DNA of 64,000 nucleotides from Bifidobacterium sp. (GTDB taxonomy: Bacteria; Actinomycetota; Actinomycetes; Actinomycetales; Bifidobacteriaceae), in the NCBI RefSeq assembly GCF_022640935.1, contig NZ_JALCCV010000001.1:1-64000 (forward strand), in the 5' to 3' direction. The notes beneath the pieces are model-generated. The model was not told the origin of the DNA. It made no database searches and was given only the letters and a program-made list of their open reading frames with translations. The position numbers and the translations under genes are program-made. Positions 25,143 through 58,087 of the stretch are shown here, in pieces (position 1 is the first letter of the stretch; every line of letters begins with the position of its first letter).

Positions 25143-25275
25143 TCGTCGTGTGACGCATCCTCCGTTATGCGACGTATTTTTCGCTGTGCGACGTTTTCAC
25201 CAGAACAGGAATAACGAATTTCCAACGTTTTGCGTTTCTTGGAAACCGCGCACGACGAAAGATACGTCATGCAAC
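25143..25275 (-). repeat. Intergenic imperfect-palindrome element, copy A
   Basis: Reverse complement aligns over about 110 bp with 44079-44192 and, more partially, 57990-58087; ends form imperfect inverted repeats. Confidence 0.72.
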
Positions 25276-25367
25276 GGGAGCGGCGAATATGCCACACGGG
25301 CGGCACAAGGTGCCGATGACCAGGCTGCCGCGTCTCCATCGGCACCTACGCCACCGCATCATCGCCG

Positions 25368-25796
25368 CTATTGCGCCGGTGATGCCGATTCGCGCTGATT
25401 CTGCTGGCAGTCGGGGCACAGTCCGAACACTTCGAGCGTGTGCGAGCTGACCGTGTAGCCATGCTCCTGCGCCACGCTGCGCAGCCACAGCTCATCCGGC
25501 GGCTCGATTTCCACGGTTTTGCCGCACAGTTCGCATACCAGATGATGGTGGTGCCCGTTGTCGTCGCAGATGCGGAACATCTGCTGCTCGTTGAGCCGTA
25601 TCGTGTCGGCATTGCCGTTGGTCGCTAGCGTATTGAGCTGGCGGTAGATGGTCGCCAAGCCGATGCGCTCACCCTGTTCGGTGAGCCGACGATGCAGCTC
25701 CTGTGCGGAAACGAAGTCATCGCATCCGCGCAGCGCCTGAAGCACCGTGTCCTTCTGCTTGGTGTGCCGCACCATTGATTTCCTCACAGCCATCAC
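25368..25796 (-). CDS. Fur-family metalloregulator (Zur/Fur-like)
   Basis: MVRHTKQKDTVLQALRGCDDFVSAQELHRRLTEQGERIGLATIYRQLNTLATNGNADTIRL...CDDNGHHHHLVCELCGKTVEIEPP...GLCPDCQ. Confidence 0.88.
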   Translation of the reverse strand: MMAVRKSMVRHTKQKDTVLQALRGCDDFVSAQELHRRLTEQGERIGLATIYRQLNTLATNGNADTIRLNEQQMFRICDDNGHHHHLVCELCGKTVEIEPPDELWLRSVAQEHGYTVSSHTLEVFGLCPDCQQNQRESASPAQ

Positions 25797-25953
25797 AATG
25801 CCGCCATCCCCTCATACATCGTCCATCGCACGCCAATGCCCTGCCCTGCAGGCGTAACCGTCACATGGCATCCGTCGCATCACAACCATCACACCTCATC
25901 TGCCGCAATGCCGTATTACCATATATTGCCGCACGCGGTAGCCGCCTCGTAGC

Positions 25954-27132
25954 CTATTCTCCGGCTTTCAGATCATTCCAGCAACCGGTTTCTTCCAGCG
26001 CGTCAACCGTAGCCGCCGTATCGTTGGTGAGCACGGTGATGTGACCCATTTTGCGGTTATGCTTGATCTCAGCCTTGCCGTAGTCGTGGACGTTCCATTC
26101 GGGGTGCTCGGCGATCAGCGCCCGCGTGGGCGCGACATGCTGGCCGAGCACATTGACCATGACCGCCGAGCTGAGCAGACACGGCTGTTCGAGCGGCCAG
26201 CCGACGATGCCGCGGATATGCGCATCGAACTGGTCGAGCGAGCAGGCTTCGATGGTGTAATGGCCGGAATTGTGCGGCCTTGGCGCGAGTTCGTTGACCA
26301 CCACGCGACCGTCCTTGGTGATGAACAGCTCGATGGCCAGCGTACCCGCCAGTTCGAAGCCCTTCGCCAACCGCACGGCGAGCTCATGCGCCTCGCGCTC
26401 GATGCTAGGCTCCACTCGAGCCGGAGCGATTGTCAGATGCAGGATATTGTTCCGATGCTCGTTGCGCACGATCGGGAAAGTGACCAAATCCGTGCCGTTG
26501 CCCGACACCAGAATCGAAGCCTCGAAGGCGAAATCGACGAAACCTTCGAGGATCGAGGCGGCGAAACTCCCCTCCTCCTGCGCGCGGGCAAGCACACGTT
26601 CCAGGTCATCGTCACCGCGCAGCACGTCTTGGCCGTGGCCGTCATAGCCGCCGCAGCGGGTTTTGAGCACCGCCGGATAGCCAATCTCCCGGATCGCCGC
26701 GCGCAAGCCAACGGCATCATCCACAGCCCTCCACGGGGCCGTCGCAGTGCCATGATCGTTGATGAACTGCTTCTCGTGCACGCGGTCCTGGGTCACGCGC
26801 AGCAGATCGGTTCCCTGCGGCACCGCAGCCAGATCGCGCACCTCGTCAATGGCATCGGCGTCCACATTCTCGAATTCATAGGTGAGCACGTCGCTGCGCT
26901 CGGCGAGCTCATGAATCGCGGTCTTGTCGTCGTATTCGGCGACAATCTGGAAATCTGCCACTTGCGCGGTCGGGCAGTCGGGCGTCGGATCGAGCGTGCC
27001 GACGCGGAACCCGTGGTATTTCGCGGATATGGCCATCATCTGGCCGAGTTGGCCGCCGCCGATGATGCCGATGGTCGCGCCCGGCATCAGCTGGGAGATT
27101 TTCCCGTTCGTTTCCTCAGATAAGCTTGGCAT
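25954..27132 (-). CDS. purK: 5-(carboxyamino)imidazole ribonucleotide synthase
   Basis: [52 protein letters not shown]...[28 protein letters not shown]. Confidence 0.95.
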
Positions 27133-27613
27133 TCGAGGCCTCCACTGATTCTTTGAGTTCTTCGCGATAGTCGTGCAAGGCAGCCGCCAACCGCTCGTCA
27201 TTCGTGCTCAGGATGCCCACCGCGAGCAGGCCCGCATTGCTGGCTCCCGAGTCGCCGATCGCCGTCGTCGCCACGGGTATGCCTGCCGGCATCTGGACGA
27301 TGGAAAGCAGCGAATCCCACCCCGACAAGGCATGCGATTGCACAGGGACGCCGATGACCGGCAGCGTGGTCTGCGCGGCGACCATGCCCGGCAGATGGGC
27401 GGCTCCGCCAGCACCGGCGATGATGACTTTGAAACCTTGGGCGCGGGCGCCGCCAGCGAACTTGGCCATCAGCTCGGGCGTGCGATGCGCGGATATCACC
27501 TGCTTGGCGTAGGGAACGCCGAAACGATCGAGAATGTCGCAAGCATGCCTCATCGTCTTCCAATCGCTCGCCGATCCCATGATCACCGCCACTTGCGGGG
27601 TGCGCTCTGGCAT
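27116..27613 (-). CDS. purE: 5-(carboxyamino)imidazole ribonucleotide mutase
   Basis: [45 protein letters not shown]...[25 protein letters not shown]. Confidence 0.96.
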
Positions 27614-27884
27614 GAAGAACCTCCAAATCTACTGGTCGCAACACGCCCCACTGTACGCAACCCAACGGAAATAAGGCGTTTCCGGCTCACGCTTGTCGAT
27701 GCTGACGAAAAAACGAGTTAAACGAACAGCACGAATGACGGCTTTGGACCGTGCGAATGGCAGAGATTCAATGGTCCCACTCGTGGAAATCAAACATGAG
27801 ACGGCCGTTCTGGCCCGCGCCTTTTAGACCCGATCCAAAAAGCATGAGCCAGCCACGCATGGGAGACAACCGTCCCGCAGAGCG

Positions 27885-28187
27885 TTACCGCGCCAATTCG
27901 ATGTGCTTGATACCTTCCTTGTCGCTGCGGCGGAAGAGGACGAAACGATGCCCAATGACTTGGACAAGTTCGGCCGCAAGACGCCCGGCCAGATCCTGCC
28001 CCGCCTCGCGCGCATCGATGGGGCAGCCGTCCTGCACCACGCATTTGATGAGCTCATGCGAGTCGAGCGTCTCGGCTGCCTGCGCCGCCGTGGCCTCGTT
28101 CACGCCGCCTTTGCCGATCCACAATAGCGGCTGCAATGGGTTCGCCAGCGAACGTAGTTGCCTGATCTGCCTTTTGCCTAATGTCAT
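27885..28187 (-). CDS. YhbY/CRS1-CRM family RNA-binding protein
   Basis: MTLGKRQIRQLRSLANPLQPLLWIGKGGVNEATAAQAAETLDSHELIKCVVQDG, typical YhbY fold. Confidence 0.85.
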   Translation of the reverse strand: MTLGKRQIRQLRSLANPLQPLLWIGKGGVNEATAAQAAETLDSHELIKCVVQDGCPIDAREAGQDLAGRLAAELVQVIGHRFVLFRRSDKEGIKHIELAR

Positions 28188-28401
28188 TTATCTCTCGTCT
28201 CTCCTGCGCCGTTGTTCCTGCAACGCCTTTTATCCCGGCGCGACTGCACGTTCGTGCATATGCGAGCGGCAATCAGCCGCCTATTCATGAAATACCGATT
28301 GTAGCGCATTTCTTTTCTGCGGCCAGCTGCGACAGGTTTCGCGCTGAATGTCCCACACGTCCCCTTCATCGTCGAAAAAGTACGAGTCAAAGCTCCATGC
28401 A

Positions 28402-28779
28402 CTACTTCTCATCGTCGCGCACCTCGGGCAGGTTCACCTCGCAATAGCGATCCAACGCCTGGTTGAGCCGAGTAATAAGGCAATCTGGGGCTATCTGCGG
28501 GCGAAGGTAGGCGCGCAACGATCGAATCAGCGCCTTCTCGCGCGCGTCGCAACACGAGGGATCGAAACACTCTCCGGTGTCATGGGCACGGCCGTCGTGG
28601 GCATGCTGATTGCCAGGCTCGTGCGGGTGCGTGTTCATCGACAGCAGCTGCGTCTCGGTGACCGCCGCAGTGGTGACCGCCCCGGCAGCGTCAGTGGTGA
28701 TCTCCACCTCGGTGCGCGTCACGCTCATGCTGGCGTCCCGTGTGATACGGATATGGCGCTGGCCCATCGACTCGCTCAT
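28402..28779 (-). CDS. Small Cys-containing protein translationally coupled to an ECF sigma factor (putative divergent anti-sigma factor)
   Basis: Starts inside the sigma-factor stop (ATGA). C-terminus CFDPSCCDAREKALIRSLRAYLRPQIAPDCLITRLNQALDRYC is loosely like RsrA/ZAS proteins. Confidence 0.55.
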   Translation of the reverse strand: MSESMGQRHIRITRDASMSVTRTEVEITTDAAGAVTTAAVTETQLLSMNTHPHEPGNQHAHDGRAHDTGECFDPSCCDAREKALIRSLRAYLRPQIAPDCLITRLNQALDRYCEVNLPEVRDDEK

Positions 28780-29582
28780 GCCCGCTCCTTTCCCGCAGTG
28801 TCTTCTGCCACAGTGCTCCCTATACCAACATTTCCGATAGTGGCATCTTCCATGACGTCGTCCGCCGCAATACTGCTCTTTGCAACGTCCACGGCCGGCG
28901 AGACGCCGTTCTTCACCCCATTATGGCGGTTTGATGCCGCCACCGGGTTCGCGGATGGTGAACTCTTCAACTGCCCGCGCACGCCCTGGCCGCCACCATC
29001 GCCATATCCGCGCTCACGCGCGTATGACGCCAATTCGCGTTTGAGCTGATTGCGGGCGCGATTGAGGCGGCTCATCACCGTGCCGATCTTGATGCCCTGC
29101 TCATCGGCCACCTGCTGGTAGGACTTGCCATCGATCGCCGTATCGATGAACACTTGGCGGCGTTCGGGGCTGAGTTTGCCGAAAGCCTTGAGAATCTCCT
29201 CGGGGGCGAAATTGTCGAGGTATTCCTGCTCCGCGGAGCGCAATCCCTCCGAAGCGTGCTCGGACGCCGAATAAATATCCCAGTCGTCATATTCGCCGGT
29301 CGAATCATTGGCCCGTCGGGGACGACGTTTCGCCTTCGCATACTGGTTGAAAAAGGCATTGCGTTCGATCGTGCTCATCCACGCCTCGAAATTGCTGCCC
29401 GGTTGGAAGCTGTCGAAAGCCTTGAACCCGCGCTCGTATGCGTCCTGCACCAAGTCCTGCGCGTCCTCGGTGTTGTTGGTCAGCTTCATCGCCTGGCGGT
29501 AGAGCGCATTGACGGCGGGCATGGCAAGCTGCTCAAAGCGCGCGCGCCTGCTCGCGATGGTCTCAGTCTGCTCGTTCGTCAC
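28776..29582 (-). CDS. ECF RNA polymerase sigma factor (SigR/SigH-like)
   Basis: RRARFEQLAMPAVNALYRQAMKLTNNTEDAQDLVQDAYERGFKAFDSFQPGSNFEAWMSTIERNAFFNQYAKAKRRPRR...LSPERRQVFIDTAIDGKSYQQVADEQGIKIGTVMSRLNRARNQL; GTG start assumed. Confidence 0.9.
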   Translation of the reverse strand: MTNEQTETIASRRARFEQLAMPAVNALYRQAMKLTNNTEDAQDLVQDAYERGFKAFDSFQPGSNFEAWMSTIERNAFFNQYAKAKRRPRRANDSTGEYDDWDIYSASEHASEGLRSAEQEYLDNFAPEEILKAFGKLSPERRQVFIDTAIDGKSYQQVADEQGIKIGTVMSRLNRARNQLKRELASYARERGYGDGGGQGVRGQLKSSPSANPVAASNRHNGVKNGVSPAVDVAKSSIAADDVMEDATIGNVGIGSTVAEDTAGKERA

Positions 29583-29707
29583 GCACACTATTCTAGGCAC
29601 CCGTTGCGCGACGCCCGTCGACAGGTATGTCGAACCGTTAAGCTGACAGGGCATCGTTGATTTGCAGTCGCACAGCTTTGTCTGTTTGCTGGCGCACAAT
29701 GTCCTGT

Positions 29708-30472
29708 ATGACGTCCCTTACGACCGCTACGACCGCTTCCCACGACGCACTTGCAGCCGCCCTGTCGGCAGCGCCCGAACAAGGCGAAGACACGCTGCTC
29801 CCCGATTCCCTGCTGCTCGGCTTCGACACCGAGACCACTGGAACATATGCCGGCCGCGACGCCATCGTCTCGGCCACGCTGGTGCTGCGCGACCCTAAGG
29901 CCGGCTATGCGGGCGACACGGTGGGCGAATGGATCATCAGCCCGCACCGGCCGATGAACCCGCATGCGAGCGCGGTGAACGGCTTCACCGACGAATTCCT
30001 GTCCGAACATGGCGAGGAGCCGCAGGCGGCTATCGCGCGCATCGTGCAGCTCATCGAGACCGCCCAGTCCAAACGCATCCCGCTGCTGGCCTATAACGCG
30101 CCGTTCGACGTGCGCATGCTCGCCGGCGATCTGCGCCGCTGGAAGCTCGGCACGCTGCCGGACGACCTGCTGGTCGCGGATCCGCTGGTCATCGACCGCG
30201 CGATTTCGAAGCGCTCCGGCAAACGCAACCTCTCATATACGGCCGAATACTATGGCGTGGAACCGCACGGCGACTTCCACGACGCCACGGCCGACACCAC
30301 GGTCGCCGTCGACCTCATTGCGCCGATCAGCGCGCTGTACCCACAGGTCGGCCATTTGACGCTCGCCGAGCTGATGGGCTGGCAGCGCAAAGCCTTCGTC
30401 GCCTGGCGCGACAATTTCAACACTTGGCTGCAGCGCAAAGGCCGCCAGCCGATCCACGACACCTGGCTATGA
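29708..30472 (+). CDS. DnaQ-like 3'-5' exonuclease
   Basis: LLLGFDTETTGTYAGRDAIVSATLVLRD...LAYNAPFDVRML...YYGVEPHGDFHDATADTTVAVDLI; DEDD motifs. Confidence 0.88.
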   Translation: MTSLTTATTASHDALAAALSAAPEQGEDTLLPDSLLLGFDTETTGTYAGRDAIVSATLVLRDPKAGYAGDTVGEWIISPHRPMNPHASAVNGFTDEFLSEHGEEPQAAIARIVQLIETAQSKRIPLLAYNAPFDVRMLAGDLRRWKLGTLPDDLLVADPLVIDRAISKRSGKRNLSYTAEYYGVEPHGDFHDATADTTVAVDLIAPISALYPQVGHLTLAELMGWQRKAFVAWRDNFNTWLQRKGRQPIHDTWL

Positions 30473-30486
30473 AGGGAACTCCGAGA

Positions 30487-32064
30487 ATGCCTGCCTACCA
30501 GTCTTCCCTGACTCCCGCAGCGGCCGTCACGCTGTTGCGGCGTCGTCATCTGCTGCGTGAAATCATCAATGGCGAACGTTGGACTTTGGACGCCCGGTTG
30601 ATCGCGGGTTTTGACGCCCCCATCGCATCGCTCACCTACGACACGCGCAAGGCCGATGCGCACAGCCTGCTGTTCATCAAGGGCCAGTTCAAGCCGGAGT
30701 TTCTCGCACAGCTCGAAAACGGCGCCCCGGCCTGCTACGTGGCCGAGCGAGATTATTCGCGGCACACGGATGCGCCGGGCATCATCGTCGACGATGTGCA
30801 GCAGGCCATGAGTCTGCTCGCCGCGCAGTTCTACGGCAATCCACAGCGCTCCATGACGTTGATCGGCATCACCGGGACCAAAGGCAAAACGACCACGGCG
30901 TATTTCACGCATGCCATCCTTCAGGCTGTGTCGCATGGCAGGGCGGCGCTCTCGTCCTCGCTCGTCCATTGCATGGACGGCGAGCATTTCGAGCCCTCGC
31001 ATCTGACGACGCCGGAATCATTGGATGTGTTCCGCATGATGCGCGAGGCCGCTGGCAATGGCATGCGCTACTTCGTGATGGAGGTCTCCTCGCAGGCTTA
31101 TAAGCGCGAGCGTGTGTTCGGGCTGACCTTCGATGTCGGCGCGTTCCTGAATATCAGTCCTGATCATATCAGCCCGATCGAGCACCCGACGTTCGAAGAC
31201 TATTTCTATTGCAAACGCCAGATCATCGCCAACAGCCGCGCGCTGGTGCTCGGCGCCGATTGCGCCCACGCCGACCTGCTGCGCGAAGACGCCGCGGCAA
31301 GCGGCATCGCCGTCACATCGTTTGCGCTGCACGACCAGGCCGCCGGGCTCTCGACACCCGCCGACGTCATCGCCACGGATGACGTCGAGGATCCAGGTGC
31401 GTTCAGCGTGGACGTCCACGGCACGAAAATACAGGATTTCCGGCTGTCCATGCATGGCGAATTCAACATCGCGAATGCCGCGGCAGCCATCGCCATCGCG
31501 CTCGAGGCTGATGTGGCTCCCGACGATGCGGCGCTGCAGGCCGTCAACGATGTCCATGTGCCCGGACGCATGGAGCGCTTCGTCAGCCGCGACGGCATCA
31601 TCGCCTATGTTGACTACGCCCATAATTATCTGAGTACCAAGACACTGCTCGACGAGATCGAGCGGCGGTACGCAGGCCGCAATCCACGCATCGTCTTGGT
31701 TGCCGGATCCACCGGCGGCAAAGCGCTGGATCGGCGCGAAGGCATTGTCAAAGGCGCGCTGGGCCGGGCCGAGTCCTTCGTCTTCACCACCGACGACCCG
31801 AATCATGAGGACCCCGCGCAGATCGCCCGGCAGATGCGCTCCTATGTGACTGATTCGCATGCCGCGACGCATATCGTCATCGACCGCGCGCAGGCGATCG
31901 GCGTCGCGCTGCAGGATGCCCGCGCGCATCCGGACCGACTCAACATACTTGTGCTGATCGGCAAGGGCAACGAGACCGCCAATATCATCGACGGCAGGCC
32001 GGAGCCTTATCTCGGGGACGCAACCGTGATCGCCGGACTGTTCGCTCAACCGGCCGACATGTAG
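30487..32064 (+). CDS. MurE-like UDP-N-acetylmuramyl peptide ligase
   Basis: SMTLIGITGTKGKTTTAYFTHAILQAV...ESLDVFRMMREAAGNGMRYFVMEVSSQAYKRERVFGLTFDVGAFLNISPDHISPIEHPTFEDYFYCKRQ...VFTTDDPNHEDP. Confidence 0.88.
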   Translation: MPAYQSSLTPAAAVTLLRRRHLLREIINGERWTLDARLIAGFDAPIASLTYDTRKADAHSLLFIKGQFKPEFLAQLENGAPACYVAERDYSRHTDAPGIIVDDVQQAMSLLAAQFYGNPQRSMTLIGITGTKGKTTTAYFTHAILQAVSHGRAALSSSLVHCMDGEHFEPSHLTTPESLDVFRMMREAAGNGMRYFVMEVSSQAYKRERVFGLTFDVGAFLNISPDHISPIEHPTFEDYFYCKRQIIANSRALVLGADCAHADLLREDAAASGIAVTSFALHDQAAGLSTPADVIATDDVEDPGAFSVDVHGTKIQDFRLSMHGEFNIANAAAAIAIALEADVAPDDAALQAVNDVHVPGRMERFVSRDGIIAYVDYAHNYLSTKTLLDEIERRYAGRNPRIVLVAGSTGGKALDRREGIVKGALGRAESFVFTTDDPNHEDPAQIARQMRSYVTDSHAATHIVIDRAQAIGVALQDARAHPDRLNILVLIGKGNETANIIDGRPEPYLGDATVIAGLFAQPADM

Positions 32065-32101
32065 CATTCATCTACGCGGCACCCCGAGGTAAGGTAGCGG
32101 C

Positions 32102-33343
32102 ATGAAGCAATTCCAACCCATCCTGCTGGGCAGCGACATCAACGCTTACGGCATGGCCCGCGCATTCCACGAGGAATACGGGCTCACATCCGTCGCGTTC
32201 GCGCACTTCCCGCTCTCCCCCACCAAGTTCAGCCGTATCCTTGATCTGCGCATCATTCCTGGATTCGGCGAGCCAAGCATCTTCCGCTCCGCCTTGTTGG
32301 ACTATGGCAGACGCATGAAACAGGAGCATCCGGACACGACGCTGCTGGTGATACCGTGCGGCGATCTGTATGCGAATCTGCTGAGCGAATGCGCCGGCAA
32401 ACTGCAGGACTACTTCGTTTTCAATACGCTCGAACCGGCGCTCAACCGGCGGCTGAGCCTCAAATCAAGTTTCTATGCGACATGCGAGCAGTATGATCTG
32501 CCGCATCCGGCCACGAAGGTCGTGTCTGCTGAAGGCGTGTCGCGCGGCGAGCATCACACACTGCCGTTCGGCTACCCGGTCGCCATGAAGCCCGCGGACA
32601 GCGCGTTATGGCTCGACATCGACTTCCCCGGCCGCAAGAAGGCCTTCGTCATCGATGATCCGGCCGAACTCGACACGCTGATCCGGCGGGCGTATGAGGC
32701 CGGATACACCGGCGACATGATCATTCAGGATTTCATTCCCGGCGACGACAGCCGCATGCGTGTGCTCAACGCATATGTCGATCAGCATCATCATGTGCGC
32801 ATGATGTTCCTCGGCCATCCGCTGCTCGAGGACCCCACCCCCGAAGCCGTGGGCAACTACGCGGCCATCATCCCCGACTACAACGAGCCGATCATGCTGC
32901 GCATCAAAAATTTCCTCGAGGACATCGGCTATCAGGGAGTCGCGAACTTCGATATGAAATACGACGAGCGCGACGACGAATACAAGCTCTTCGAAATCAA
33001 CCTGAGACAAGGCCGCAGCAGCTACTTCGTCACGCTTAACGGCTGCAATCTGGCGCGCTACTTCGTCGAGGACCTGGTCGAGGACACCGCCTTCGACGGG
33101 CGGACGCTGTTCGCGCGCGGCTCCAAGCTGTGGATGGAGATCCCGCGCTCGATCTTCCGCGAATACGTGCGCGACGGCGGCGACAAACAGCGTGGGCTCG
33201 CGATGATCAGGCGCGGCGACTGGGGCACCACTTTGGAATATCGCAAGGACATGAACCCGACACGCTGGCTGATGATCCGTCATATGTTCTCGATCTACAA
33301 GAGGCGCTACGCACGATATTTCAGCCACAAGGAGGATCTATGA
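32102..33343 (+). CDS. ATP-grasp carboxylate-amine ligase (possible D-aspartate ligase, Asl-fm-like)
   Basis: MKQFQPILLGSDINAYGMARAFHEEYGLTSVAF...FGYPVAMKPADSALWLDIDFPGRKKAFVI...YQGVANFDMKYDERDDEYKLFEINLRQGRSSYFVTLNGCNLARYFVEDLV. Confidence 0.75.
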   Translation: MKQFQPILLGSDINAYGMARAFHEEYGLTSVAFAHFPLSPTKFSRILDLRIIPGFGEPSIFRSALLDYGRRMKQEHPDTTLLVIPCGDLYANLLSECAGKLQDYFVFNTLEPALNRRLSLKSSFYATCEQYDLPHPATKVVSAEGVSRGEHHTLPFGYPVAMKPADSALWLDIDFPGRKKAFVIDDPAELDTLIRRAYEAGYTGDMIIQDFIPGDDSRMRVLNAYVDQHHHVRMMFLGHPLLEDPTPEAVGNYAAIIPDYNEPIMLRIKNFLEDIGYQGVANFDMKYDERDDEYKLFEINLRQGRSSYFVTLNGCNLARYFVEDLVEDTAFDGRTLFARGSKLWMEIPRSIFREYVRDGGDKQRGLAMIRRGDWGTTLEYRKDMNPTRWLMIRHMFSIYKRRYARYFSHKEDL

Positions 33344-34074: not shown

Positions 34075-34092
34075 GCCGATATAGGGCGTAAA

Positions 34093-34141
34093 CGTTCTGT
34101 CTTTTATCATCGGCCGCCCACCGATGATAAAAGACAGAACG
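34093..34141. repeat. 21-bp perfect inverted repeat (7-nt loop) between convergent genes
   Basis: CGTTCTGTCTTTTATCATCGG ccgccca CCGATGATAAAAGACAGAACG. Confidence 0.95.
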
Positions 34142-34146
34142 CAATG

Positions 34147-43862: not shown

Positions 43863-43895
43863 TAGGTGAGACGAGCGAGCGCCGAGGTCGCGAAG
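43861..43895 (+). repeat. 35-bp intergenic motif, copy 1
   Basis: cgtaggtgagacgagcgagcgccgaggtcgcgaag; 30/35 identical to the reverse complement of 58115-58149. Confidence 0.65.
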
Positions 43896-44078
43896 GCCGT
43901 GCTGAAAGCTCCGTCAAGAACGCTTTTGCAACGGGTCCTATCCCAACTGAACAGATATCTCTTTGCGGTGTCGTTCCCTCAAACCCAGCACCACACCAAC
44001 CCATTCACACCCAGCACCAGCACAGGCGAACCCTCCCCCCTGCACACCAGTAACCCCGTCATGTGCGGTTCTTCCTCA

Positions 44079-44192
44079 TCGTATGACGTATTTGTCGTTG
44101 TGCGCGGTTTTCGGAAAACGCAAAACTGTAGAATTCCACCATTTCTGTTCCGAGGAAAATGTCACCCACCGATATTTACGTCACACGACGAA
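44079..44192 (+). repeat. Intergenic imperfect-palindrome element, copy B
   Basis: gtatgacgtatttgtcgttgtgcgcggttttcggaaaacgcaaaactgtagaattccaccatttctgttccgaggaaaatgtcacccaccgatatttacgtcacacgacg aligns with copies A and C. Confidence 0.72.
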
Positions 44193-44279
44193 CCACCGCA
44201 TGATCCAAAACGTCCGGACACGACGCGCCCCACCCCACACCGCCCGAACCATCCACATCTGAAAGGCCTACTTATTCCC

Positions 44280-44801
44280 ATGCCAACATCACCATTCATC
44301 CTCGACCTTCGCAAGAAAATAGGCCATGCTCCCCTCTGGCTTTCCGGCGTGACCGGATATATCGAGGACGCTCAGGGACGCGTGTTGCTTGGCCAGCGCT
44401 CGGACACCCGCGAATGGGCCATGATTTACGGCGTCAACGAACCCGGTGAGGAGCCTGCTGTTACGGTGGCGCGCGAAGCCAAGGAGGAGGCCGGCATCGA
44501 CGTGATCGTCACCGATCTCGTGGCCGTGAAATCCTCGACGCGAATGGTACGCTATGACAATGGCGATCAAGCGATGTACATGGATCACCTCTTCCTGTGC
44601 ACGCTCGATCCGCAAGGCAACGGTGTCCCCTTCGTCGGCGACGAGGAAAGTCTTGCTGTCGGCTGGTTCGCCCTCGATTCGTTGCCTAAACCGCTCGCTG
44701 CCACCACGGTGGAGCGCATGACGTACGTCGCCGAATATCGACGCCGGGCCAAGGGAGGCAATCGCCGAGCCCTATTCAGTTTCGATGCGCATATGGTTTG
44801 A
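44280..44801 (+). CDS. NUDIX hydrolase
   Basis: GVTGYIEDAQGRVLLGQRSDTREWAMIYGVNEPGEEPAVTVAREAKEEAGIDVIVTDLV; variant NUDIX box GE-x5-REAKEEAGID. Confidence 0.9.
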   Translation: MPTSPFILDLRKKIGHAPLWLSGVTGYIEDAQGRVLLGQRSDTREWAMIYGVNEPGEEPAVTVAREAKEEAGIDVIVTDLVAVKSSTRMVRYDNGDQAMYMDHLFLCTLDPQGNGVPFVGDEESLAVGWFALDSLPKPLAATTVERMTYVAEYRRRAKGGNRRALFSFDAHMV

Positions 44802-49272: not shown

Positions 49273-49302
49273 ATCGATGACTAGGCTACCGAGAATGCTT
49301 TT

Positions 49303-50556
49303 TCACCGCAGCGAGCGGCCACCGCACCACACGCGTTGCACGCTCCACTGCGTGTCGTCGAGCAGCAGCAGATCGGCGGCGTACCCGGGGGCCACAAGGC
49401 CCAACGGGGCACCGGTGATCGCGTTCGGCCGGTCGAAACCATAGGTTTTCGCTGGGCTAAGCGTGGCGGCCTCGACGGCTTGGATGGGATCCACGCCAAG
49501 TTCGAGGACAGCCCTGCTTACAGCTTTTTCGAGCAGCAGCGTCGAACCGGCGATGGCCCCGCCTTCGACAAGCCGCGCATGGCCGCCGACGACGTTGACC
49601 GACAGCGCGCCAAGCAGATAATGGCCGTCCGGGCAACCGGTTGCGGACATGGCATCGGTGATCAGCTCGATGCGGTGTGGGGCCAGCTGGAAGGCTATTT
49701 TGACCATGGGATCCTGCACATGGAAGCCGTCATTAATCAGCTCGATGGAGATCCGCGTATCCTCGATCGCGGCTGCGACCGGACCCGGGGCGCGGTGCTT
49801 CAAGCCGTTCATCGCATTGAAGATGTGGGTCAGGATCCCGGCACCGGCGTCGAAGGCCTTGCGCGCAGTTTCGTAATCGGCCTCGCAATGGCCTACGGCG
49901 GGAATGACGTCAGCCTTGGCGAAACGCCCGATCGCGTCGAGCCCATGCGGCAGTTCCGGAGCGATCGTGATCTGACGGATCGCCCCTTGGCCGGCCTCAA
50001 GCAATTGCTCGACCAGCTCGGGCTGTGGGTCGCGCAGGCATTCGGGGTCATGCGCGCCACGGCGGGTGGGCGCCAGGAACGGGCCTTCCAGATGCACGCC
50101 GAGGATGTCCGGGCGGCCTGCCATCGCCGCATGCAACGCTGTCAGGTTGCGGCATATGGTGTCGATCGGGTTCGTGATCAGCGAGACCACGGCGCGCGTC
50201 GTGCCATGGAAGGCGTGCGCGGCGCGAGCGGTCTCGATGCCCTGAGGCCCATCGTCGAATGACATGCCCCAGCCGCCATGGGCATGGGTGTCGATATAGC
50301 CAGGAGCCAGAATCCGGCCTCGCGCATCGACGACCTCCGTGCCTTCGGGGGCGATGCCGGCCTGCTCACAGGCGCGGGCAAAGTCGGGGTCATTGCTTCC
50401 CACTGCCGAGATCACGCCGTGATCGGCCACTGCCCAAGCATGCTCGCGCACACCATTGGCGTCAATCAGCTTGGCGTTGCGGATCGCGAGGCCCGCTGGC
50501 GATGCCTTCAGAGCTGCCGTGATTTCGTCGACATGCTCGTGCCGCACGATTTCCAT
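49303..50556 (-). CDS. nagA: N-acetylglucosamine-6-phosphate deacetylase
   Basis: ILAPGYIDTHAHGGWGMSFDDG...GVHLEGPFLAPTRRGAHDPECLR...AVGHCEADYETARKAFDAGAGILTHIFNAMNGLKHRAPGPVAA...LITDAMSATGCPDGHYLLG. Confidence 0.95.
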   Translation of the reverse strand: MEIVRHEHVDEITAALKASPAGLAIRNAKLIDANGVREHAWAVADHGVISAVGSNDPDFARACEQAGIAPEGTEVVDARGRILAPGYIDTHAHGGWGMSFDDGPQGIETARAAHAFHGTTRAVVSLITNPIDTICRNLTALHAAMAGRPDILGVHLEGPFLAPTRRGAHDPECLRDPQPELVEQLLEAGQGAIRQITIAPELPHGLDAIGRFAKADVIPAVGHCEADYETARKAFDAGAGILTHIFNAMNGLKHRAPGPVAAAIEDTRISIELINDGFHVQDPMVKIAFQLAPHRIELITDAMSATGCPDGHYLLGALSVNVVGGHARLVEGGAIAGSTLLLEKAVSRAVLELGVDPIQAVEAATLSPAKTYGFDRPNAITGAPLGLVAPGYAADLLLLDDTQWSVQRVWCGGRSLR

Positions 50557-50652
50557 ATGAACTCCCTTCGCACGGCTCGCCAATGCGGGCCGCTGATGCT
50601 ACTGCCACGGCGCGCTATGCCCGGCCGGTGGCCTGTGTGGGCATGTGGCAGA

Positions 50653-51441
50653 TCAGATGCCCTGCCAAGCCGGCTTATGCGCGAATGCATACTTGTAATA
50701 ATCCTTGTGGCGCAGCCGGGATGCAGCGGCTTCATCGACGATGACCGTGGCGTGCGGATGCAGCTGCAGCGCCGAAGCCGGGCAGAACGCCGAAATGCCG
50801 CCCTCGCATGTCTCTTCGATAGCCTCGGCCTTGCCTGCGCCGAATGCCAGCAACACCAGATGGCGCGCCTTGAGTATCGTGCCGATGCCCTGCGTGATGC
50901 AATGCGTGGGAACCCGTTCGATATCGCCATCGAAGAAACGGGCGTTGTCGATGCGCGTCTGTTCGGCCAAGGTCTTGATCCTGGTGCCGGAAGCCAACGA
51001 GGAACCAGGCTCGTTGAAACCGATATGGCCGTCGGTGCCGATGCCGAGGATCTGCAAATCGACGCCGCCCGCGGCCTCGATCGTCGCATCATAGGCGCGT
51101 CCGGCGCCTGCGATCGTTTTCAAATTGCCATCGGGCACATGCACGAGATCGGGATTGAGGCCCACTGGCTCGACGACGGTGCGGGTGATTGTGCTGCGGT
51201 AGGACTGCGGATGCCTGGGATCGAGTCCGGCGTATTCATCCAAGGCGAACCCTCGCACCTTGCTGACATCGATGCCATCTTGCGCGACACGCCGCGCGAG
51301 ATGGCGGTATGCGGCCAGCGGGCTGGAGCCCGTGGCCAGCCCCAGCACCGCGTCAGGCTTTGAGCGGATGAGATCGGCCACGCACGACGCGTACAGTTCG
51401 CCAGCCTCGTCTTCGTCTTTGACAATGATCACTTCGGCCAT
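50653..51441 (-). CDS. nagB: Glucosamine-6-phosphate deaminase
   Basis: MAEVIIVKDEDEAGELYASCVADLIRSKPDAVLGLATGSSPLAAYRHLARR...FALDEYAGLDPRHPQSYRSTI...LQILGIGTDGHIGFNEPGSSLASGTRIKTL. Confidence 0.96.
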   Translation of the reverse strand: MAEVIIVKDEDEAGELYASCVADLIRSKPDAVLGLATGSSPLAAYRHLARRVAQDGIDVSKVRGFALDEYAGLDPRHPQSYRSTITRTVVEPVGLNPDLVHVPDGNLKTIAGAGRAYDATIEAAGGVDLQILGIGTDGHIGFNEPGSSLASGTRIKTLAEQTRIDNARFFDGDIERVPTHCITQGIGTILKARHLVLLAFGAGKAEAIEETCEGGISAFCPASALQLHPHATVIVDEAAASRLRHKDYYKYAFAHKPAWQGI

Positions 51442-51520
51442 TTTCCGACCTTTCTCGTCAAGACCGCGTCACAATAACACGGCGACGATTCTTTGCGCGT
51501 ACGAATTGAGTCGCTGCAAT

Positions 51521-51545
51521 TTGTTAACTTACCTTACATAAACAA
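51521..51545. promoter_or_regulatory. Candidate ROK (NagR-like) operator between nagB and the ROK gene
   Basis: TTGTTAACTTACCTTACATAAACAA: imperfect inverted repeat (half-sites TTGTTAAC and TTGTTTAT) in the divergent intergenic region. Confidence 0.45.
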
Positions 51546-51598
51546 TTGTACGAGAACGCAGGACCGATTCGTTCCTGCGCCACTGTCGAAGAGGGCCC

Positions 51599-52750
51599 AT
51601 GCAAATACAGCAGGCAGAGCATACGGTGCACTCCCCCGTTCCGCGCCGATTGGGAAAATCCGGCCCCGGGGACATCCGACGCAGCAACCGCGCGCTGATC
51701 TTTGATCTGCTGCTGCCTGACCATCAGTATTCGCGGGCCGATCTGGGCCGGCTGACCGGGCTGTCGCGCGTGGCGGTATCCGACGTGGTCGCCTCGATGC
51801 TGGACGACGGACTGCTGCGCGAGTGCGGGCGCGAAAATTCCCGCGGTAAAGGCAAGCGCGGCACGCTGCTGGGCATAGACCCCGATAGGCTCGACATCAT
51901 CAGCATCGACGCATCCCGACCCCAACTTCTCGAGGGCGCAGTGACCGATCTGCTGGGTGCGCAGCGATACTGCGAGCAGCTGGCGATCACGGCCGGCACC
52001 ATGCTTGGCATGACAACGATCAGCACACTGGTCGAGCGGCTGCTTGCGCACGCCGAACACCCGGTCGGCATCGGCATCGCGGTGCCCGGCGTGGTCGACA
52101 ACAATATGATCGTGCGCACGTCGACGGCGCTGGGCTGGTCGAACCTCGATCTGCGCACGCCCTTGGAACAGCGCTTCAGACTGCCCGTCATCGTCGACAA
52201 CGATTCTACGAGCGCCATGCTGGCCGAACGATTCTTCGGCCAAGGCGGACCGAACCTCTTCTTCGTGCGCATCAGGCGCGGCATCGGCGCCGCCGTGCTC
52301 ATCGACGACGTCCCTGTGCTCGGCGAAACGAGCGCAGGCGGAGAGATCGGCCATATCTCCATCGATCCGAATGGTCCGTTGTGCGCCTGCGGCAAGCGCG
52401 GCTGCCTGGAGACGCTCATCTCGGCAACCGTGCTGCGGCAGCACATGCGAGGCTCCAGACAGGCGGAACGCGAGGCGATTCTGACGCAGGCCGGCGATTA
52501 CCTCGCCACGGCCTTGGCCATGCCGGTCGGCCTGCTGGATGTCAGCGATGTCTGCCTGCACGGCCCCGACGATATCCTGACGGCAGGATTCATGCAGGCT
52601 GTGCAGGCGCGTCTCGATGCCACCACTGCTTCTTCCTTCCGCACCCGCACGGTCGTAAGGCGCTGCGCCTTCGGTGAGGATGTTACGATGCAGGGCGAAA
52701 GCGTATCCGTCGCGCGGTATACGGCGGCCCGAGTCTTCTCGCCCATGTAG
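51599..52750 (+). CDS. ROK-family transcriptional regulator
   Basis: N-terminal HTH (YSRADLGRLTGLSRVAVSDVVASMLDDGLL), then IGIAVPGVVDNNMIV...GEIGHISIDPNGPLCACGKRGCLETLIS zinc motif. Confidence 0.93.
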   Translation: MQIQQAEHTVHSPVPRRLGKSGPGDIRRSNRALIFDLLLPDHQYSRADLGRLTGLSRVAVSDVVASMLDDGLLRECGRENSRGKGKRGTLLGIDPDRLDIISIDASRPQLLEGAVTDLLGAQRYCEQLAITAGTMLGMTTISTLVERLLAHAEHPVGIGIAVPGVVDNNMIVRTSTALGWSNLDLRTPLEQRFRLPVIVDNDSTSAMLAERFFGQGGPNLFFVRIRRGIGAAVLIDDVPVLGETSAGGEIGHISIDPNGPLCACGKRGCLETLISATVLRQHMRGSRQAEREAILTQAGDYLATALAMPVGLLDVSDVCLHGPDDILTAGFMQAVQARLDATTASSFRTRTVVRRCAFGEDVTMQGESVSVARYTAARVFSPM

Positions 52751-52895
52751 GGCCGACGCGCAAATCCGCTGCATTCGCCTCAGATTTGCGCTCTCCCGCA
52801 TCAGATCATCGCCCGCTCGCACGAACATGCCGCGCAAACGCGCTGCAAACCGTCAATTTCCCGGGAAACTGATAAAAAACCAGGTCGCTAAGGGG

Positions 52896-52915
52896 CGCGA
52901 AACGTAAATTTCGCG
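52896..52915. promoter_or_regulatory. Inverted repeat CGCGAAA-cgtaaa-TTTCGCG upstream of the second ROK gene
   Basis: Perfect 7-bp arms with 6-bp spacer. Confidence 0.35.
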
Positions 52916-52975
52916 AGACGTTCCGCGATATCGGCCATCCGACACGCATGTTCTCCAGTCATTTGCATAGGAGAA

Positions 52976-52988
52976 TTAACTGCGTTAA
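52976..52988. promoter_or_regulatory. Inverted repeat TTAAC-tgc-GTTAA upstream of the second ROK gene
   Basis: Perfect 5-bp arms; shares the GTTAA element with the 51521 candidate site. Confidence 0.35.
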
Positions 52989-53061
52989 CCTATTCCGTAG
53001 GTTCCGCCTCAATGAGGAACGGCGGCCGGCAACAGCTCCAAATCCAGTGTGGGAGGTCACG

Positions 53062-54267
53062 ATGCGCAACGCACAGGGCATCACGTCCCAGGCGAGCGTC
53101 TCCGAATCCAATCGCTCGCGCATCCTGCACTATCTCTACCACAACGGCGTCTGCTCTCGAGCCCAAATCGCCAAAGCCCTGCGGCTCACCCCAGCAGCCA
53201 TCACGAAAATCACGGCGCGCCTCATTGACGCAGGCATCATCGCGGAAACCGGCGATATCGAAGGCGCGAAAAACCGCCGTTCGATCGGACTGAAACTTGA
53301 CGACGCCCGATTCCACCTTCTCGGCGTCAAATTCGCCCGCAGCCTCGTGCAGATCGGCGTTTTCGACCTCGCCGGCTCGCCGATCGGACTGCACGAGCTG
53401 CCGACGGTCAGCGAGAGCACGATTCCCGACACCATCCGGCTCATCCATACGATGCTCGCCTCACTGCTCGCCAGCGACCCTGGCATCGTCGCCATCGGCA
53501 TGGCGGTGCCTGGACCATATCTGCGCGTGGCGGGACGCACCGCAGTCGTCTCCTCGATGCGCGGCTGGCGCTACGTCAACTTCCCTAGGGAGTTCGTCCA
53601 CGCCTTTGACGTCCCGGTCTTCATCGAGCAGGACGCTCGTGCCGGAGCCCTCGCCCAATACTTGTTCGACAAGCGCAACACTTGCGAGAATCTCGCGTAC
53701 TACCTGCTCGGAGAAGGCGTAGGCCTCGGCGTCATCGACAACGGCCGGCTCATCAACGGAGCATTGGGAACCGCCACTGAAATCGGGCATGTGAGCATCG
53801 ACATCAATGGCCGGCCGTGCGAGTGCGGCAATGTCGGCTGCCTGGAACGTTATTGCTCGGCCGTGGTCATTCACGAGGCCATCGTGAGCCGCGGTCTCGT
53901 GCCGAATGCGAAAGAGCTGACTCACAGCGAGGCGTGCCGGGCCCTGTTCGCTTTGGCTGATTCCGGCGACGGACGCGCCAAGCTGCTCGTCGAAGAGATC
54001 GGCCATTACGCCGGCTTCGGCTGCGTGACGATTTTCAACGCCTACAATCCCGAACGCATCGTCATCGGCGATATCGTGGCCCAAGGCGGGCAGCCGCTGC
54101 TGCAGGCCATTCGCGAAGTCGTCGACAGCCATGTGTTGCCCGAGCTCAGGGAGGCTACGACGATTTCAATATCTAATCTGCGCAGCGATTCCGCCGTTTG
54201 CGGCGCGGCGGCGGTGGCAGCCACGCAATTCCTCGACCATCCTTCGATGTTTTTCGATGTCGCATAA
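53062..54267 (+). CDS. ROK-family transcriptional regulator
   Basis: HTH (CSRAQIAKALRLTPAAITKITARLIDAGII), AIGMAVPGPYL...FIEQDARAGALAQYLF...TEIGHVSIDINGRPCECGNVGCLERYCS. Confidence 0.93.
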   Translation: MRNAQGITSQASVSESNRSRILHYLYHNGVCSRAQIAKALRLTPAAITKITARLIDAGIIAETGDIEGAKNRRSIGLKLDDARFHLLGVKFARSLVQIGVFDLAGSPIGLHELPTVSESTIPDTIRLIHTMLASLLASDPGIVAIGMAVPGPYLRVAGRTAVVSSMRGWRYVNFPREFVHAFDVPVFIEQDARAGALAQYLFDKRNTCENLAYYLLGEGVGLGVIDNGRLINGALGTATEIGHVSIDINGRPCECGNVGCLERYCSAVVIHEAIVSRGLVPNAKELTHSEACRALFALADSGDGRAKLLVEEIGHYAGFGCVTIFNAYNPERIVIGDIVAQGGQPLLQAIREVVDSHVLPELREATTISISNLRSDSAVCGAAAVAATQFLDHPSMFFDVA

Positions 54268-54295
54268 AAAGTCACATAAGGAAAGGAAACACACC

Positions 54296-55192
54296 ATGAC
54301 CAAACCAATAGTGCTCTCCCTGGGAGAGCTGCTGTGGGATATGCTTCCCAGCGGCAAGCGAGCCGGCGGCGCACCCGTCAACTTCGCCTATCACGCCGCG
54401 ATGAACGGAACCGAGGGCTGCGCGATCAGCGCCGTGGGAGAAGACGAACTCGGCGATGAGCTGCTCGCGGCCGCGAAGGAATCCGGGGTCCGTTCGGTCA
54501 TCCAGCGCAACGCCTGGCCTACCAGCACGGTCGAGATCTCGCTCAAAAACGGCATACCCGAGTACACGATCGTCAAGAACGTGGCGTGGGACCATCTGCT
54601 GCTCACCCGCGAACTCATCGGGCAAGTAGAGCGTGCCGACGCAGTGTGCTTCGGCACGCTGGCGCTGCGCTCCCCCGAAACGCACGATACGATCATCGAA
54701 CTGCTCAAGCACGCCAAGCACGATGCGCTCAGATTCTTCGACATCAATCTGCGCGGCGACCACTATTCTAAGGAGCTTATCGCCGAGCTGCTTGGTCTTG
54801 CCAGCGTGTTCAAGCTCAATGACGAGGAGCTGCTCCTGCTGCGCGACATGTTCGACATCCGAGGGGCTTCGGACGACGAGGCATGCCGCTGGTTCATCAG
54901 CGAATACGGCCTCGACTACGTGATCCTGACCGCAGGCTCGGCGTTCAGCACGATCGTGGCGAAGAACGGCGAGGTTTCAACGCTCTCGACCCCGCGCGTC
55001 GAGGTGACCGACACGGTGGGCGCGGGAGATTCCTTCTCCGGCACCTTCACCGCGAAGATCCTCACCGGCTCCTCATTAGTCGAGGCGCATCGCGCGGCCG
55101 TCAACACCGCGGCCTTCGTCTGCACGCAGAATGGCGCCTGGCCACGCTACCCCGAGCACATGCCGGATTACCTGGCCGCAGCCGGGCTGTAA
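54296..55192 (+). CDS. PfkB-family carbohydrate kinase (fructokinase-like)
   Basis: VLSLGELLWDMLPSGKRAGGAPVNFAYHAAMNGTEGCAISAVGEDELGDELL...VEVTDTVGAGDSFSGTFTAKIL. Confidence 0.93.
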   Translation: MTKPIVLSLGELLWDMLPSGKRAGGAPVNFAYHAAMNGTEGCAISAVGEDELGDELLAAAKESGVRSVIQRNAWPTSTVEISLKNGIPEYTIVKNVAWDHLLLTRELIGQVERADAVCFGTLALRSPETHDTIIELLKHAKHDALRFFDINLRGDHYSKELIAELLGLASVFKLNDEELLLLRDMFDIRGASDDEACRWFISEYGLDYVILTAGSAFSTIVAKNGEVSTLSTPRVEVTDTVGAGDSFSGTFTAKILTGSSLVEAHRAAVNTAAFVCTQNGAWPRYPEHMPDYLAAAGL

Positions 55193-55211
55193 GGATTAGG
55201 GATATCGACTT

Positions 55212-56507
55212 ATGCGCTATGACACAGTACCCGAATCCGCCAGGGCTCTGATGGCGCATGTCGCCAAGTTGTGCGGGCCGGAGCATGCGGCATGGTCTCG
55301 TGATTTCAATGCGGCCTTCGCCAATACGCTGCTCACCACGGTTCGCCGCCATGACGACGGGACGACCTTCCTGCTGACCGGCGACATCCCCGCCATGTGG
55401 CTGCGCGATTCCAGCGCGCAGGTGCGGCCCTACCTCATCCTGGCCGCGCAGGACGAGGATCTGGCGTCGATGATCGCCGGGCTGGTGCGCCAGCAGATGC
55501 GCTGTATTGCCATCGATCCATATGCCAACGCCTTCAACGAGTTCCCCAGCGGCGACTCATGGGATCATGGCGACCGGTCCGACCGCAGCAGCCCGTGGCT
55601 GTGGGAACGCAAGTACGAGACCGATTCCCTGTGCTATCCGCTTCAGCTCGCGTGGCTGCTCTATTGCAACACCGGGCGCACCGATCACTTCGACAACAGC
55701 TTCATGACCGCCGTGCGGCGCATCCTGGATGTCTTCGAGACCGAGCAGAACCACGCCGGTTCGCCGTACTATTTCATCCGCGATACCACGTTGCCCACAG
55801 AGACGCTGGGTGACGACGGCAAAGGCTCGCCCGTCGCCGTCACCGGCATGACCTGGTCCGGGTTCCGCCCTAGCGACGACGCCTGCACCTACCACTATCT
55901 GGTGCCTGCAAACATGTTCGCGGCTGTGGTGATGGGCTATGTCGAGCAGATCTTCGCCGGTCCGCTGAACGATCCGGACATCGCATCCCGGGCGAAACGG
56001 CTGCGTGAGGACATCAGCGCGGGCATCGCCGCGCATGGACTTGCGAGGAACCGAAATGGCGAGCGCATATACGTCTATGAGACGGATGGACTGGGCCACG
56101 CCTTGATCATGGACGACGCGAATGTACCCAGCCTTCTGGCGGCCCCGTATCTGGGTTACTGCGCCATCGACGACCCGGTGTACCAAGCCACCAGACGCAC
56201 GCTGCTGAGCAGCGAGAACCCGTATTATTACGCCGGTTCGCACGCCCGAGGCATAGGCTCGCCGCATACGCCGAAAGGCTACATCTGGCCGATCGCGCTG
56301 GCAGTGCAAGGCATGACCAGCGCAAGCGCTGACGAAAAAGGGCGCGTGCTCGATCTCCTTGTCGCCATTGATGCCGGAACCCATGTGATGCATGAAGGCA
56401 TCGATGTCAATGATCCGCATGCATACACACGCGAATGGTTCAGCTGGGCGAACATGATGTTCTGCGAGCTCGTCATGGACTATTTCGACATTCGAGTGAG
56501 GCGGTAG
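55212..56507 (+). CDS. GH125 exo-alpha-mannosidase
   Basis: [60 protein letters not shown]...[28 protein letters not shown]...[26 protein letters not shown]125 signatures. Confidence 0.92.
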
Positions 56508-56745
56508 CCATGCGGACCATCCCCTGCCGATCGCCGTGCGGCGGCTGCCGCTTGATACGCCGTCGTGTCGCCCGACGCGCCGCCAACCGGCGTATTGTCG
56601 GCCGGCCTGCTACCGCACGGCTCATCATGCCGGACAACGCATCATGTATTCCCATCATCGCAATTGCAAGCTTTCGTCTGCGCCGACCCACAAACCCGCT
56701 CGGACGAACCATAAGAACATCATTCCAAGGAAGGAATCACATATC

Positions 56746-57987
56746 ATGACCACTACGAATCCAAAATACCGTCTCGGCACTGTCGCCAACCGGACTTTCA
56801 TGGCCTCCGAGACATACGAGCTGCTCGATTTTGGCCGCCGTTTCCCTGGCGCTCAAGGCGGCTCCGGCTGGCTGGACGACAACGGGGACATCGATCCCTC
56901 GCATGGCATCCAAACGTGGATTACCGGGCGCATGACGCACGTGTACTCGATCGCGTCGTTGCTTGGCTATCCCAATGCCGGCGAACTCGCCGACGCGGGT
57001 TTGAAAGGCCTGACCGGCATTCTGCACGACGACGAGCACGGCGGCTGGTATCCCTCGATTCAATCCGATGGCACGCCAGAACCCGGCAAGGTCTGCTATG
57101 CGCACGCATTCGTCATCATCGCAGCCAGTTCGGCGCTGCTCGCCAAGCGGCCCGGCGCCAAGGAACTGCTGCGCGAGGCGCTCGACACTTACGACGAGCA
57201 TTTCTGGGACGAGAAGGAAGGCCTTGCAGTCGATACATGGGACACCGCGTTCGCGACTCTCGACACCTACCGTGGCCTCAACGCCAACATGCACACCACC
57301 GAGGCGTTCCTTGCGGTCGCCGACGCCACGGGCGACAACCGCTACCGGCAGCGCGCCGGGCGCATCATCGACCACGTCGTCTCTTGGGCGAGGGGCAACG
57401 AATGGCGCATTCCCGAGCATTTCAACGACCAATGGGAGCCGGATTTCGAGTTCAACGCGGACAAGAAGGACGACCAATTCAAGCCCTATGGCGCCACCCC
57501 GGGCCATGGCATCGAATGGGCGCGGCTCATCACGCAGTGGGCGCTGAGTTCCTTCGCCAACGCCGAAGACTCTCAGCCATACATCGAGGCCGCCGAGCAT
57601 CTCTTCGAGCGAGCGCTGGCCGATGGCTGGAACGCCGACGGTACGATCGGCCTGGCATATACGACCGACTGGAACGGCAAGCCCGTGGTCACCGATCGCA
57701 TGCACTGGACGCTGGCCGAGGCGATGAACACCTCCGCGACGCTGGCCAAGGCGAGCGGCAAGTCCGAGTACCGCGAGCGCTACGCCGAATTCGCCCGATA
57801 CACCGACGAATACCTCATCGATCACAACGGGGGCTCATGGTTCCATCAGCTCGACGTCGACAACCACGTGATCGGCACGGTATGGCCGGGCAAATCGGAT
57901 CTTTACCACGCCTTCCAATCCACCCTCATCCCCTTCCTCGACCCAGCCGTCTCGATCACCACCGCGATCAGCAACGCCGCGAAGTGA
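56746..57987 (+). CDS. AGE-family epimerase/isomerase (probable D-mannose isomerase)
   Basis: HGIQTWITGRMTHVYSIASLLGYPNAGELADAGLKGL...YAHAFVIIAASSALL...LNANMHTTEAFLAVADATGDNRYRQRAGRI...HGIEWARLITQW. Confidence 0.85.
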   Translation: MTTTNPKYRLGTVANRTFMASETYELLDFGRRFPGAQGGSGWLDDNGDIDPSHGIQTWITGRMTHVYSIASLLGYPNAGELADAGLKGLTGILHDDEHGGWYPSIQSDGTPEPGKVCYAHAFVIIAASSALLAKRPGAKELLREALDTYDEHFWDEKEGLAVDTWDTAFATLDTYRGLNANMHTTEAFLAVADATGDNRYRQRAGRIIDHVVSWARGNEWRIPEHFNDQWEPDFEFNADKKDDQFKPYGATPGHGIEWARLITQWALSSFANAEDSQPYIEAAEHLFERALADGWNADGTIGLAYTTDWNGKPVVTDRMHWTLAEAMNTSATLAKASGKSEYRERYAEFARYTDEYLIDHNGGSWFHQLDVDNHVIGTVWPGKSDLYHAFQSTLIPFLDPAVSITTAISNAAK

Positions 57988-57989
57988 GC

Positions 57990-58087
57990 GGGTCGCTGTG
58001 CGACGTTTTCGGAAATCGCAAAACCGCAGAAATCCGACATTCTTGGTTTCCCGAATACGTCGCACAGCACATCAATACGTCGTACGG
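57990..58087 (+). repeat. Intergenic imperfect-palindrome element, copy C
   Basis: ggtcgctgtgcgacgttttcggaaatcgcaaaaccgcagaaatccgacattcttggtttcccgaatacgtcgcacagcacatcaatacgtcgtacg aligns with copies A and B. Confidence 0.72.

Follow-up and report, generated by a model that had tools for sequence, protein, structure and literature searches.

A bifidobacterial class of short intergenic elements with a common core and exchanged arms

Short interspersed repeats are usually described family by family and species by species, and are regarded either as inert sequence or as parasitic on a transposase. Elements of the ERIC (enterobacterial repetitive intergenic consensus) and IRU (intergenic repeat unit) type are single families of one sequence, BOX elements are modular with a variable number of internal modules, and the multi-site transposon ends of the Tn7, Mu and IS21 type, which the elements described here resemble, carry tandem ~20-bp binding sites in unequal numbers at their two ends, with spacing that matters. 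Here we analyse a stretch of 64,000 nucleotides from a Bifidobacterium sp. genome (NZ_JALCCV010000001.1, positions 1 to 64,000; hereafter the window), in which a sequence-only reading had noticed three dispersed intergenic copies, A, B and C, of a short element with imperfect terminal inverted repeats. That reading offered three identities: a miniature inverted-repeat transposable element (MITE), a repetitive extragenic palindromic (REP)-like family or a structured RNA of 3′ untranslated regions (3′-UTRs).

The REP, bacterial interspersed mosaic element (BIME) and REPIN sequences with their REP-associated tyrosine transposases (RAYTs; PMC3116915, PMC2817692) are short intergenic repeats of palindromic or inverted form; like the present elements they are species-specific and lack target-site duplications, and copying in trans would be common to both. 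They differ from the present elements, in which the centre is conserved while the ends diversify, the arms are tandem ~20-bp units and the Y1 transposase is absent (window genome and Bifidobacterium aesculapii). ERIC/IRU elements (RU-1, 127 bp) and other small enterobacterial mobile sequences (PMC2759123, PMC2229807) likewise are imperfect palindromes of ~100–150 bp in intergenic positions with no known autonomous partner, whereas here one core occurs with unrelated arm families and quantised spacing. BOX of Streptococcus pneumoniae (PMC3049150) is also a small dispersed interspersed repeat, but here the repeated module lies inverted on both sides of a constant centre and its sequence differs between species. 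Compared with Tn7, Mu or IS21 ends, neither a coding interior nor a target duplication was seen here, and fixed copies are apparently under selection. REPIN, ERIC, BOX and MITE elements thus share the size and setting of the bifidobacterial elements but not their design of a constant core with exchangeable arms. No earlier description for Bifidobacterium was found in the open-access literature searched, and the class apparently has been undescribed so far. On balance, A, B and C probably belong to a genus-wide class of intergenic elements that act at the DNA level, namely helically phased, multi-site protein-binding elements that are also spread like non-autonomous mobile elements.

The core and its arms across the genus

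A search with the DNA of a single copy found no match in 24 other species of the genus, which initially suggested a species-specific repeat. A second model (R2) matched at least 50 of the 112 genus genomes, a lower bound because no more than 32 candidates per genome were scored. These matches had the same centre, AAACGGCGGAATTCCGCCATTYTTG, between arms that were quite different from one match to another, including CCCATGGTGTAGGGAATTT, CCCATGGGGCGGTAATTTG, CGTCGTGTGCGGTTTTTAT, GCTTTGGTGTGACGCAAACC, palindromes such as CCGTACCGTGGTACGG, and others. Allowing one mismatch at most, the core GGCGGAATTCCGCCATT was present in 67 of the 112 genomes, against one match for the reversed-motif control; outside the genus, in an order-wide sample, 8 of 283 genomes had one match each, which is about background. 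The exact palindromic core occurs in B. aesculapii, B. callitrichidarum, B. hapali, B. jacchi, B. reuteri, B. stellenboschense, B. biavatii, B. choloepi, B. miconisargentati and B. platyrrhinorum. It was also encountered outside bifidobacteria (Sphingomonadaceae and others); because the inspected examples carry no matching arms, these cores are taken as unrelated.

Inverted arms exceeded the 99th percentile of the control at 48 of 87 distinct core loci, and several of the other loci belong to a family, Z, whose partner unit lies partly beyond the 90-nt test window. The modules follow one layout, in which one to four units of ~19–20 bp and a spacer precede a near-palindromic core of ~20 nt, followed by inverted units. 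Within the window genome itself, one core is found with three arm families that have the core alone in common: family X, to which A, B and C belong, family Z (unit CGTCTATTAAGCACTTTTTT; L316, L318 and L319) and family P (AAGTCGGCCGATAGCG; L317). The genus has the core in common, and each family or species has its own unit sequence. The sequence-only reading could not see this pattern of a shared core with swapped arms, and its three proposals found partial support overall.

The REP-like proposal was not supported. In place of the conserved end motif (GTAG/CGTC tag) and variable centre of REP and REPIN sequences, we found a conserved centre and ends that vary between families. RAYT proteins (Y1, PF01797) were absent from the window genome (92% complete), B. 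aesculapii, B. hapali and two others, and among the genomes searched were present only in B. callitrichidarum. This rules out a RAYT in B. aesculapii and, within the limits of assembly completeness, in the window genome.

Spacing, constraint and dispersal

Searching with the inner unit of family Z gave 9 places in the window genome, 23 in the relative G116 and 16 in the relative G120, with none in the control. The distance between inner unit and core was 47–48 bp in 51 of 56 copies and 58–59 bp in the other 5, with none between, and total length followed the spacing class (117–120 or 129–131). The two classes lie one helical turn apart, so that the modules show the fixed or whole-turn spacing of a helically phased nucleoprotein site, while the sequence of the spacer between unit and core is not conserved.

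Thirteen orthologous Z pairs from the window genome and two relatives were matched via their flanking sequence. Identity was 0.90–0.92 in units and core, 0.74–0.76 in spacers and 0.75–0.81 outside the module, and gap columns numbered 1, 3, 2, 9 and 4 in the five module parts, whereas the two flanks had 134 and 107. The outer L unit, which was never used for finding, had an identity of 0.903 compared with 0.758 in spacers (Fisher P = 1.6e-7). Likewise, L units in pairs found by their core reached 0.900 against 0.779 (P = 4e-4), and the core in pairs found by their L unit 0.885 against 0.774 (P = 0.016). These comparisons show a lower rate of change in Z units and core than in spacers at orthologous loci.

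Z modules also often occur as inverted pairs, R-core-L and L-core-R around a flexible middle of 39–142 bp (about 360–470 bp in all). All 17 detected pairs (L290, L318, L319, L322, L324, L327, L328, L336, L342, L343, L346, L349, L350, L351, L354, L355 and L365) share this relative orientation, with L ends facing, and the paired modules mostly differ in their inner-unit variant, TTCGCAAAGTAG or TTGCGAAAGTA.

Copies in B. aesculapii show a comparable division into units and linkers. The unit pattern matched 85 times in this genome and not once in the control, from which we infer roughly 40 copies. Twenty-nine were aligned, and 26 of these were without length change, at 88 bp with one unit on the left and two on the right. 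Their ends are sharp: information falls from ~1.9 bits in the outermost element bases to 0.71 and 1.21 bits at the first positions of the flanks, where T and A predominate, with up to 1.0 bit at a few nearby flanking positions and otherwise mostly less than 0.5. Mean pairwise identity was 0.984 in units and 0.397 in the fixed-length linkers; neutral decay of recent copies cannot yield randomised linkers beside invariant units. Nearly all copies in B. callitrichidarum measure 121–122 bp between their outermost CATG motifs (2+3 or 3+2 units), the exceptions being one of 132 and one of 102.

Copies 0.5–2.8 kb apart in B. aesculapii (G042) are near-identical, variable columns included. Neighbouring copies within about 2.1 kb (at L169, L185 and L197) agree at 0.92–1.0 in variable columns, compared with a mean of 0.66 for distant pairs, and the pair at L136 has 99% identity over 100 nt, which suggests local copying or gene conversion. 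Two elements 2.8 kb apart were considered as the two ends of a transposon and rejected, as the gene between them resembles a surface protein and not a transposase.

The MITE-like proposal drew mixed support from these data. As ordinary MITEs, the copies would be decaying internal-deletion derivatives of insertion sequences, with the tandem units as transposase-binding sites at their ends. They are indeed short, non-coding and numerous, with terminal inverted repeats, dispersed positions and, in B. aesculapii, sharp boundaries; the unequal unit numbers at the two ends are like those of known multi-site transposon ends, and copies A and B are absent from relatives, as described below. Against this, no target-site duplication was present among the 29 B. 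aesculapii copies for k = 2–9 in the frames tested, nor were inverted flanks. A unit pair with a long interior was not noticed in three genomes, nor was an autonomous relative sharing these ends in B. aesculapii, in B. callitrichidarum or in part of B. hapali. Independent deletions would not produce the same core between unrelated arms. Nor do decaying MITEs behave as these copies do at fixed orthologous loci, where units, core and spacing are under selection while spacers drift. Plasmid iterons or phage att sites would occur on such replicons, yet at the sensitivity used there was no match among 72,556 plasmids (two queries) or 50,697 phages (one query). We consider ordinary MITEs an unlikely explanation. 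An origin from plasmids, phages or other viruses was rejected; the IMG/VR matches that were read (L159, L160, L164 and L166), a set apart from the 15–16-mer unit matches, are without matching arms.

The same constraint would fit purely chromosomal sites of the host, such as insulator, nucleoid-organising or transcription-border sites, which would have no mobility of their own and would be spread by recombination and gene conversion. The selection seen at orthologous loci, and the fixed spacing there, agree with this, and local conversion could explain the near-identical neighbouring copies in B. aesculapii. So does the genomic setting: by a crude gene caller the copies are almost wholly intergenic, a few predicted gene edges overlapping them by up to about 100 bp. 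Copies rarely lie between two gene starts (3 of 24 classifiable in B. aesculapii, 3 of 37 in Z and 3 of 17 in X), counts that are approximate because the caller misjudged the NUDIX neighbour of copy B. The ~40 inferred B. aesculapii copies with clean ends in unrelated flanks are harder to reconcile with immobile sites, and the unit sequences vary by species, whereas a housekeeping site is usually conserved along with its protein. Host sites alone are a possibility that we hold to be doubtful.

Family X and the copies in the window

The placement of A, B and C by the sequence-only reading was confirmed for position and strand, with an alignment covering most of their length. A covariance model recovered A (E = 1e-26), B (4e-29) and C (8e-22) in the window and, below E = 1, nothing else except the same three on the opposite strand. 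As this model was built from A, B and C themselves, a BLAST search with B alone serves as the independent test; in its own genome (2.15 Mb in 53 contigs), B found A (5e-12), C (1e-7) and four other places below 1e-3. A seven-copy covariance model then gave 17 clear copies of family X and two or three doubtful ones, so that about 14 further copies exist beyond the three in the window.

The consensus of the aligned copies runs TCGTCGTGTGACGTATTTTTCGTTGTGTGNCGTTTTCGG, a spacer, AACCGTAGAAATCCGCCATTCCTG, and then the first stretch inverted. Its core of ~20 nt, originally palindromic (AAYGGCGGAATTCCGCCRTT), lies between inverted arrays of ~20-bp units. The presence of imperfect terminal inverted repeats was confirmed, each arm being itself a tandem pair of units, TGTGACGTATTTTTCG and TGTGCGACGTTTTCGG, with three or four units in some copies (A, B and L021). 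Consensus arms are near-perfect inverted repeats; those of individual copies, which share about 0.6 identity with one another, are not. Arm columns paired at 73.2%, compared with 72.9% in column shuffles, which means that the two arms vary independently. This speaks against selection for a hairpin at either the RNA or the DNA level and agrees with arrays of sites for proteins.

The proposal of a 3′-UTR structured RNA is not supported, given this absence of covariation. Its wider form, a structured RNA or bidirectional intrinsic terminator at gene ends, can point to the stable folding of A, B and C in either strand, to an intact core, AATGGCGGAATTCCGCCATTTTT, that resembles a hairpin with a U-run, and to copy A, where the outer units and a T-run 14 bp past the stop of the MprF-like gene fit a terminator pattern. 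However, RNAalifold left X without structure and Z with next to none, the window at the Rfam gathering score yielded only a tRNA and hence no match to the element, and the core palindrome is broken in X. A terminator pattern is absent inside B and C, and the core was rejected as a terminator. An RNA or terminator is a very improbable account of the class.

Copy A occupies 25143..25275 on the minus strand, including a third outer unit at 25143–25160 on the MprF side, and sequence and alignment place its core, AACGTTGGAAATTCGTTATT, at 25210..25229 (minus). It starts 12 bp past the stop of the LPG_synthase_C (MprF-like) gene, which ends at 25130, and a convergent FUR-family gene (25368–25796) faces it from the other side. 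Copy B (44079..44192, plus) consists of two units, a spacer, the core AACTGTAGAATTCCACCATT (44124..44143, plus) and two inverted units; by inspection, a third, more diverged outer unit, CCGTCATGTGCGGTTCTTCC, lies outside these coordinates at about 44056..44075 (plus). Although B is downstream of the aminopeptidase P gene, 241 bp past its stop (43837), it is not merely a 3′-end feature, because the start of a co-directional NUDIX gene (44280) follows after 88 bp. Copy C (57990..58089, plus; core AACCGCAGAAATCCGACATT at 58022..58041, plus) has lost or lacks its outer left unit and starts 2 bp past the end of the GlcNAc_2-epim (AGE) gene at 57987.

Directly 3′ of copy C, in its neighbourhood but outside the X element, lies a copy of a second dispersed repeat family, Y (58097..58185, plus), which ends in TAACGGCTCAGCACA and contains a hairpin such as GGCAGCCCACTGGGCTGCC. 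Y also occurs elsewhere in the window genome (C21:18637, C37:9234 and C41:1038), and appears to replace or interrupt an X arm near the core boundary in L023, L031, L034 and C37. The warning of mis-annotation across the copies was borne out: open reading frames (ORFs) 43866–44801 and 56916–58097 traverse B and C, respectively, and could be miscalled as genes or given too-early starts. Elsewhere in the window, 34093–34141 forms a perfect 21-bp inverted repeat with a 7-nt loop (CGTTCTGTCTTTTATCATCGG), the sole perfect one of that length reported there.

Sites A and B were compared with those in relatives, whose genomes share about 0.76–0.88 identity with the window genome over aligned blocks. The interval at site A is 31 bp in G116 and 290 bp in the window; that at site B is 43 bp in G116 and G120 and 488 bp in the window. 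These short intervals mean that copies A and B are missing there, either because they were never inserted or through loss. Another X locus of the window genome, C5:29899, is common to G116 and has a near-identical flank. At one locus with an X copy in both genomes (L043/L046), the right-hand units are ~11 and not 19 bp apart in G116, and are similarly shortened in the window genome. In G120, the orthologue of site A (L283, about 1060–1240) contains different 50-bp palindromes, perfect or nearly so (CTAGTAGTTTCGTCACGCAAAT...), that lack the core.

A proposed protein complex on DNA and its meaning

Length is fixed but sequence is free, spacing jumps by whole turns, units of ~20 bp stand in tandem and the core is symmetric; together these features point to a putative protein complex on DNA. 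In such multi-site protein-binding elements, each unit would be a site for a family-specific DNA-binding protein, perhaps recombinase- or transposase-like, and the core a symmetric site for a shared factor or a catalytic step. The complex would assemble on one face of the DNA, and this inferred arrangement would explain spacers that are constant in length but not in sequence. Supplied in trans, the same machinery may spread copies, as the sharp-ended 88-bp copies and near-identical neighbours of B. aesculapii might reflect, and some copies could be retained for a host function, for example gene-border insulation or nucleoid organisation.

Several points weigh against this account. Neither a binding protein nor a mobilising enzyme was identified in this analysis. 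The absence of A and B from relatives may be loss, because X copies diverge more (~0.6) than the genomes do, and X units stand only modestly above their linkers (0.62–0.68 versus 0.40–0.53 identity). Copies in B. aesculapii were found by pattern, which inflates the contrast between units and linkers and was only partly controlled; that contrast comes from one genome, whose core also shows weak covariation, chiefly one GC/CG swap. Pattern-based finding inflates conservation in Z too, and was controlled there by testing the parts unused for finding; functional constraint is shown for Z alone, in the window genome and two relatives.

More tentatively, and with less confidence than in protein-binding elements as such, the class may be a two-part DNA system unlike any described so far. 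Its genus-wide core would be combined with fast-diversifying, helically phased arrays of ~20-bp units, and recognised by a complex with conserved core-binding and exchangeable unit-binding parts. The system would both spread copies and be maintained by selection at the borders of genes.

For annotators, the elements are a reason to avoid ORF calls across them, and they offer species- or family-specific markers. In these bifidobacterial repeats a whole genus shares the core while the flanking recognition units are exchanged, with selection and whole-turn spacing. This leads to a concrete prediction, that bifidobacteria would possess an unknown multi-component DNA-binding complex.

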